Assembly (NCBI GenBank): GCA_022340615.1
Contig: JAJDNO010000032.1
Coordinates: forward strand, 1 to 60,457
Reading direction: 5' to 3'
Length of the DNA: 60,457 bases
Source: Gallionella sp.
GTDB lineage: Bacteria > Pseudomonadota > Gammaproteobacteria > Burkholderiales > Gallionellaceae
This document shows positions 55,291 to 56,913 of this stretch, piece by piece. Within the stretch, counting starts at the first letter, position 1. The number at the start of each line of letters is the position of its first letter. The notes under the pieces were generated by a model. The model ran no database searches. It had not been told where the DNA came from and saw only the letters and a program-made list of their open reading frames with translations. The translations under genes and the position numbers were made by a program.

Positions 55291-56913
55291 ATGTCGGCAA
55301 AACAGGTTTTGTTTCATGATGCCGCCCGCGCCCGGATCATCGAGGGCGTGAATGTGCTCGCGGATGCTGTCAAGGTCACGTTAGGCCCGAAGGGTCGCAA
55401 TGTCGTGCTGAACCGGGCTTACGGACCGCCGCTGGTCGCGAATTCGGGTGTGATCGTCGCGAAGGAAATCGAGCTCAAGGACAGGTTCGAGAACATGGGC
55501 GCACAGATGGTCAGGGAAGTCGCAAGCAAGACTTCCGACGTGGCCGGCGACGGCACGACCACCGCGACCGTGCTGGCCCAGGCCATCGTGCGCGAAGGGA
55601 TGAAGTTCGTCGCGGCCGGGATGAATCCGATGGATATCAAACGCGGTATCGACAGGGCGGTCGAACAAACCGTCGAGCAACTTCGCAAGATTTCCAGGCC
55701 CTGCACCACGAACCGCGAAATCGCGCAGGTCGGTTCGATCTCGGCCAATTCCGAAACCGCCATCGGCGAGATCATTGCGCAGGCGATGGAGAAAGTCGGC
55801 AAGGAAGGCGTGATCACGATCGAGGACGGCAAGAGCCTGCAGAACGAGCTGGAAGTCGTGGAAGGCATGCAGTTCGACCGCGGTTTCCTGTCTCCTTATT
55901 TCATCAACAATCCCGAGAAGCAGATCGTCGCGCTGGAAGACGCATACATCCTGCTGCACGACAAGAAGATCGGCAGCATCCACGATCTACTGCCGCTGCT
56001 GGAGCAGGTCACCAAGGCCGGCCGGCCGCTGCTGATCGTCGCCGAGGATGTCGAGGGCGAGGCGCTCGCGACGCTGGTGATCAACAACATACGCGGCATA
56101 TTGAAGTCGGTCGCGGTAAAGTCGCCGGGTTTTGGCGACCGCCGCCGCCCGATGCTGGACGACATTGCAATCCTGACCGGCGGCACGGTGGTCGCCGAAG
56201 AGGTCGGCCTCGCGCTGGACAAGATTACGCTGAACGACCTGGGCCGGGCGAAGCGCGTGGAAGTGGACAAGGAACATACCACGCTGATCAGCGGATCCGG
56301 CGATCCGGAAAAAATCCGGACCCGCATCAAACAGATCCGCCAGCAGGCGGATGAAGCGGAGAGCGATTACGACAAGGAGAAACTGCTAGAACGCGCCGCA
56401 AAACTTTCCGGCGGGGTCGCGGTCATCAAGGTAGGTGCGGCGACCGAAACCGGGATGAAGGAGAAGAAGATCCGCATCGAGGATGCCATGCATGCGACCC
56501 GGGCCGCAGTCGAAGAGGGCATCCTGCCTGGAGGCGGTGTCGCACTGTTGCGCGCCCGGCTGGCGATCAGCGCACTGGCAGGCGAAAACAGCGACCAGGA
56601 GGCGGGCATACAAATCGTGTTGCGCGCGCTCGAAGAACCTCTGCGACAGATCGTTTCGAATGCCGGTGGCGAACCTTCAGTCGTGCTGGACAAGGTGCTG
56701 GAGGGAAAGGGCAGTTTCGGCTACAACGCCGCGACCGAGGAGTACGGCGATCTGATCGAGATGGGCATACTCGATCCGACCAAGGTGACGCGCACCGCGC
56801 TGCAGAATGCGGCTTCGATTGCGAGCCTGATCCTGACCACCGATGCGATGGTGGCCGAATTGCCCAAAGAATCGGAAGTAACTGAAGAAATGGCAGAGAT
56901 GGAGCTGCCATGA
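55291..56913 (+). CDS. groEL: Chaperonin GroEL paralogue lacking Asp52 and GGM tail
   Basis: A 540-residue Hsp60 aligned to E. coli GroEL without large gaps. Nucleotide-site elements [22 protein letters not shown] (Asp87), Asp398 in [11 protein letters not shown] and [10 protein letters not shown] are kept, as are apical residues Tyr203/Phe204 and the Leu pair near 234/237. But the normally invariant K51-D52 of the TKDGVSVA motif is Asn51-Ser52 (codons at 55441-55446), and the C-terminal GGM repeat is replaced by an acidic end ([12 protein letters not shown]). No intact groES is adjacent; only a remnant. It is probably a secondary copy, with slow or altered ATPase. Its stop overlaps an ATG at 56910 (ATGA). 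Confidence 0.95.

Follow-up and report, generated by a model that had tools for sequence, protein, structure and literature searches.

The GroEL paralogue and residues 51 and 52

The window (the whole stretch of DNA analysed, 60,457 nt of Gallionella sp. contig JAJDNO010000032.1) contains a groEL gene that is preceded by a gene for an Hsp20-like protein and followed by a gene of the lxa_BCAM0308 family (Table 1). The groEL reading frame starts with ATG, is intact and has no internal stop codons. In a phmmer alignment with E. coli GroEL (PDB 4pkn_G) its product shows no gaps across residues 1–528, so the residue numbering is exact. The protein scores above the 582.1-bit cut-off of TIGR02348, the GroEL equivalog model, and its NCBIfam name is plain ‘chaperonin GroEL’. 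By sequence, the window protein is a GroEL.

In this register residue 51 is Asn (AAT, 55441–55443) and residue 52 is Ser (TCG, 55444–55446), which bears out the original observation of Asn-Ser in place of Lys51-Asp52. Asp87 and Asp398, which had been described as kept, are both present. The Asp52/Asp398 pair, which stands outside the definition of the TIGR02348 model, is a feature of normally cycling GroELs; the window protein keeps Asp398 and has Ser52. The Mg ligand and the rest of the nucleotide pocket are kept, as are the tested inter-ring residues and most of the apical residues tested, and Glu is found at position 155. The apical residues had been called conserved. Of nine positions checked (199, 203, 204, 234, 237, 259, 260, 263 and 264), seven are the same as in ordinary GroELs and two carry conservative changes, Y199F and V264I. 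The protein ends in EEMAEMELP and the Gly-Gly-Met (GGM) tail is absent, as observed before, but this loss is not specific, because a separate clade of Lys-Asp paralogues is also tail-less. An AlphaFold model of the protein (mean pLDDT 77.3, pTM 0.62) was too weak for judging the site.

Table 1. Features of the groEL region in the window
Feature	Position	Strand	Remarks
Hsp20-like small heat-shock protein	54247..54717	+	upstream, same strand; below curated cut-offs
Small Asp/Arg/Gln-rich protein, signal-peptide-like start, Gly-Met-rich end	54747..55163	+	no NCBIfam match
GroEL paralogue, N51-S52 type, without Gly-Gly-Met tail	55291..56913	+	540 aa; TIGR02348 812.9 bits
Codons 51-52, AAT TCG (Asn-Ser replacing Lys-Asp)	55441..55446	+	same pair in 47 copies/45 genomes
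Asp87 (Mg ligand) codon, kept	55549..55551	+	
Asp398 (second water-positioning carboxylate) codon, kept	56482..56484	+	
lxa_BCAM0308 family protein	56910..57500	+	NF040826, 225.3 bits vs cut-off 100
Cyclopropane-fatty-acid-synthase-like protein	58361..59674	+	recurrent neighbour; below curated cut-offs
CBS-domain-like protein	59738..60187	+	recurrent neighbour; weak matches only

Distribution of the Asn-Ser pair

The orthologous Ser52 clade that had been predicted was found: the genomes with the Asn-Ser (N-S) pair belong to 18 families of one order. Asp87 is present in all 47 copies and Asp398 in all 46 copies that cover that residue. Residue 50 is variable (Ala, Ile or Val) while residues 51 and 52 are invariant. 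When 37 genomes of the same genus were searched, a complete copy of the paralogue was found in 11, all with Asn-Ser; the ten besides the window copy are 79.7–85.5% identical to it. A twelfth genome (G015) has a C-terminal piece of the paralogue, with the site outside the piece. In a sample of 399 genomes from the order at least 35 carry an N51-S52 GroEL, a lower bound given that second copies were read in part of the sample. We regard the N51-S52 clade as a conserved GroEL paralogue subfamily of this betaproteobacterial order, a view supported by the sequences compared and by the trees described below. Within the last 30 residues no GGM string occurs in 41 of 44 N-S copies, and a single one occurs in the other three. 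Two genomes carry two N51-S52 copies each (L262 and L263 in G052; L247 and L248 in G085). Sequencing error as the source of the pair was ruled out by the ten other complete same-genus copies and by the number of copies and genomes in total.

Across 442 loci matching GroEL (duplicates included), residue 52 was Asp in 342 and Ser in 95, and the position was uncovered in five. Every GroEL read outside the N-S clade has Asp52 (the same 342 loci, duplicates included), so Ser52 is not common in ordinary GroELs. In a phylum sample of 249 genomes the 30 loci read were 29 with Lys-Asp and the window locus, at a limit of 1e-250 that hides weaker second copies. Of at least 587 candidates on named genome contigs, the 80 best were all Lys-Asp. 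For named plasmids, the 40 rows listed out of 1310 records were GroELs at 72–75% identity, a comparison at the level of identity only. With regard to a phage origin, the 80 best among 595 relatives on viral contigs were considered; 78 cover the site and none of them is N-S, the motifs being TKDG (71), TNDG (5), IDDG (1) and SKDG (1). Judged from these motifs, Asn51 alone is not unusual (5 of 78), and it is Ser52 that is unusual. A very diverged GroEL (L251, G387:C30; 54% identity to the window protein) has CNDG at positions 50–53.

We also compared 527 positions between 44 N-S rows, 149 Lys-Asp rows with a GGM tail and 13 tail-less Lys-Asp rows. The groups are defined by the site and so must differ at 51 and 52; what the comparison adds is that none of the other columns splits the 44 N-S from the 149 Lys-Asp rows cleanly. 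The next-best separating columns are K75R (35/44) and V412L (27/44). Drift was seen elsewhere in the N-S rows: Glu replaces Asp83 in 20 of 44; of the usual residues, Asn37 is retained by 20, Arg13 by 34, Ala480 by 40 and Ala481 by 36. Because other positions drift in the clade, 51 and 52 need not be the sole functional change.

The tail-less GroEL paralogues that keep Lys51-Asp52 form a group of their own (L153, L207, L208, L215, L216, L223, L225, L256 and L257). In one same-genus genome (G018) a TGA lies inside the groES frame linked to such a paralogue.

Origin and selection

The set was reduced to 222 rows by removing hits of <480 query residues, repeat entries for one gene, identical sequences and any row with a stop. 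Of these, 108 were used in a quick tree, in which the label ‘KD tail-less’ includes GroELs cut at the end of a locus; here the N-S rows fell into two groups, of 30 and 14. A more careful tree of 79 rows was computed without columns 46–56 and the tail, after four long branches and 15 truncated rows from GroES loci had been removed and ten others thinned out. In it all 37 N-S rows lie on one side of a branch with support 95/56 (branch not starred), and the 14-row group of the window has support 100/100. When the 108 rows were used to compare topologies, the tree joining all 44 N-S rows was better by 9.13 log-likelihood units (p-AU 0.594). Two origins of the pair, as drawn in the quick tree, are disfavoured by this gain and by the joining of the N-S rows in the 79-row tree. 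The change from Lys51-Asp52 to Asn-Ser most likely occurred once and has been kept since, a single origin being preferred rather than proven. N-S copies L253, L433 and L437 stand outside all trees.

Among 43 N-S rows, Ser52 is encoded by TCC (29), TCG (9), TCT (3) and TCA (2) and never by AGY, and Asn51 by AAC (29) and AAT (14). This codon pattern fits one origin with continued selection on the residues. Within the clade, dN/dS was 0.038–0.211 for ten pairs, one of which (window–L146) has a saturated dS of 2.46; for the main GroEL copy it was 0.020–0.025 for two pairs. At the level of codon substitution the N-S paralogue is constrained, less so than the main GroEL. The low dN/dS supports the earlier view of a paralogue kept by purifying selection rather than one in decay. 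The probability that the pair reflects a sequencing error or a decaying pseudogene is negligible: the gene is intact, dN/dS is low and the site is common to all 47 copies.

The catalytic site

Density for the attacking water has been described between D52 and D398 in a structure of GroEL (PMC10723157), and D52 is listed among the residues bound to the γ-phosphate of ATP (PMC8440773). The position of this water agrees with the claim that Asp52 and Asp398 are needed for hydrolysis. The near-dead mutant cited for that claim, however, lacks both aspartates, whereas Asp398 is kept here. The D398A single mutant has ∼2% of wild-type ATPase activity (PMC3813556). Since Asp398, the single loss of which costs ∼98% of the activity, is retained, hydrolysis may be only mildly slowed in the N-S proteins. 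Searching the open-licence literature, we found no ATPase value for a D52 single mutant, for D52S or for a natural Ser52 GroEL.

PDB chain 3wvl_A has Ala at both 52 and 398. If this entry is, as we presume, the symmetric GroEL:GroES2-ATP14 football crystal, loss of both carboxylates still permits binding of ATP and GroES. PMC5143341 lists the GroEL:GroES2-ATP14 crystal among its references. A GroEL that has lost Asp52 but no other carboxylate of the pair should bind and encapsulate, and hydrolyse ATP more slowly.

Alternatively, Ser52, perhaps together with Asn51, hydrogen-bonds the water while Asp398 supplies the charge, so that ATPase activity is near normal and it is the clients or the regulation that differ. 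We consider this unlikely, although the retention of nearly all other ATP-site and inter-ring residues suggests an allosteric cycle still in use, and Asp398, severe in its single loss (PMC3813556), is among those retained. Against it, Asp52 is present in every GroEL read outside the clade and lies next to the attacking water in the structure (PMC10723157); moreover, reversion or variation would be expected now and then if the swap were neutral, and none of the 47 copies shows either.

The ordinary GroEL of the same genomes

The genome of the window (G000; 2.27 Mb, 99.5% complete) has two PF00118 genes, the window copy and a main copy at C65:78644-80230. The main copy has TKDG and a GGM tail, and directly upstream of it lies groES, the genome's single PF00166 match. 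The two copies share 74% identity. A Sideroxydans GroEL matches the main copy at 93% identity, which would probably place the host among the Gallionellaceae. Besides the N-S form, 42 of the 45 genomes yielded a GroEL with Lys-Asp, in some as a fragment only. In the remaining three (G111, G327 and G345) the further GroEL copy is a fragment without the site or a sequence outside the set read. Among the 45 genomes we found none dependent on the Ser52 GroEL alone.

Directly upstream of the N-S groEL, groES was found at four of 45 loci, from both branches (L145, L259, L384 and L399); at the window locus and the other 40 there is no adjoining groES. Loss of a formerly linked groES is a plausible history of these loci. 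Stand-alone groEL genes are common; a survey put their share of all groEL genes at 14.7% (PMC5406781).

The coexistence of two GroELs allows another reading, in which subunits with Ser52 join those of the cell's Lys-Asp GroEL in one ring and, being slow, lengthen the dwell of the ring as a whole. The Lys-Asp partner in most genomes, the 74% identity with largely kept inter-ring residues (those tested) and the scarcity of adjoining groES are in its favour, but two paralogues may not mix, and we regard such mixed rings as improbable.

Gene neighbourhood

Using tblastn with the genes of the window, we compared neighbourhoods in 43 of the 45 genomes, at 45 loci in all. In the clade of the window, homologues of the Hsp20-like gene upstream and of the lxa_BCAM0308 gene downstream were each found at 13 of 14 loci, L151 having neither. 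In the window the longest lxa_BCAM0308 reading frame overlaps the groEL stop by 4 bases; its true start may be later, as the family match begins at residue 45. The family, modelled by NF040826, is named after the low-oxygen-activated (lxa) locus of Burkholderia cenocepacia. Homologues of the small protein encoded at 54747–55163 lie upstream of the N-S groEL at four other loci (L145, L146, L148 and L260), with variable Gly/Met-rich ends. This end recalls the tail missing from the window GroEL, probably by coincidence.

The surroundings of the larger N-S branch (31 loci) are varied, a BCAM0308 homologue being nearby at two. Neighbours found among those tested include a PhoH-like ATPase, isochorismatase with nicotinate phosphoribosyltransferase, and a chromate transporter. 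In family f50 (L384, L399 and L400) the N-S groEL has a distant Hsp20 homologue upstream, and at two of the three loci groES is directly upstream. At L384 the isochorismatase and nicotinate phosphoribosyltransferase genes lie downstream, and judging by these genes the f50 groEL is possibly linked to NAD salvage.

Some chaperonins are linked to monooxygenases. No such link, and no recurrent client-like gene, was present in the 20 neighbouring ORFs tested. The latter result bears on whether the changes tune release for particular proteins or serve some other task, the speed of the ATPase being incidental. The varied neighbourhoods of the larger branch would suit such specialised clients; the lack of a client-like gene in those ORFs and the little-changed apical residues speak against them, and we hold this reading to be quite improbable.

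A proposed slow, long-dwell chaperonin

The reading we prefer, although its chances are evenly balanced, is that the N-S GroEL hydrolyses ATP slowly, dwells long and serves as a chaperonin under stress or at low oxygen. The Ser52 ring would still bind ATP, K+ and the GroES of the main operon and would capture clients. Hydrolysis would be slow, because Asp398 would have to hold the water that attacks the γ-phosphate without the help of Asp52. The ring would then stay capped by GroES for longer and provide a long-dwell, ATP-sparing cage or a holdase. In low oxygen or energy shortage this GroEL would act beside the Hsp20 and lxa-type genes, while the ordinary Lys-Asp GroEL does the bulk of folding.

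The conserved pair, the one-clade trees, the low dN/dS, the Lys-Asp partner and the Hsp20 and lxa_BCAM0308 neighbours count for the slow chaperonin. Two of these, the stress-gene neighbours and the pairing with an ordinary GroEL, are especially in keeping with a long-dwell chaperonin that saves ATP. The few loci with groES beside the gene count against it, and the rarity of BCAM0308 in the larger branch counts against a role in low oxygen. Ordinary GroEL itself is reported to rise at low oxygen in other Burkholderia strains (PMC3759415, PMC3966863). In a psychrophile, a Cpn60 with strongly reduced ATPase activity has been described in terms of an energy-saving dormant state (PMC11166852). We further suggest, at somewhat less than an even chance, that a GroEL stripped of one of its two catalytic carboxylates, and with its timer thereby set very slow, has been kept order-wide, its GroES-capped cages serving, alone or in mixed rings, as long-lived storage chambers during oxygen or energy shortage.

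Relation to known chaperonins

The window protein resembles the group I chaperonin GroEL/Cpn60 of E. coli in its gap-free alignment, in nearly all of the ATP site and in most of the tested apical residues, and differs from it in Asn51-Ser52, in the missing tail and in the lack of an adjoining groES. It shares with the E. coli D52A/D398A laboratory mutant (3wvl_A) the loss of the Asp52 carboxylate. Unlike this mutant and D398A, the clade is natural, has a conserved Ser52, keeps Asp398 and is also changed at position 51. The slow or hydrolysis-dead GroELs that we saw in the literature are mostly laboratory mutants. A natural clade with the catalytic-site pair as its one clean diagnostic change offers a ready-made test of why cells might want a slow chaperonin, and GroELs that are possibly distinct can be recognised simply by Ser at position 52. 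No description of the N51-S52 clade was found among the listed matches in the open-licence literature, which is weak evidence of absence.

The reduced use of ATP by the Cpn60 of Pseudoalteromonas haloplanktis is of the kind proposed here (PMC11166852), and Anabaena GroEL1 is cited as a natural chaperonin with low ATPase activity or ATP independence (PMC5406781); the available text of these two sources reports no change at D52. GroEL paralogues with atypical tails are already known (PMC11978752). Six universal stress proteins are encoded, together with a putative heat-shock protein, in the lxa locus of B. cenocepacia (PMC6127331). The window shares with that locus a lxa_BCAM0308 family gene and a heat-shock protein gene; no universal stress protein was detected among ten window proteins scanned. 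The likeness is one of gene content, and GroEL goes unmentioned in the main text of two papers on the lxa locus (one of them PMC6127331). In chlamydiae, GroEL2 and GroEL3 are duplicated chaperonins changed at ATP binding and hydrolysis regions (PMC1892554). Against the chlamydial models NF038370 and NF038369 the window GroEL scored 191.9 and 275.9 bits, respectively, below their cut-offs of 600.
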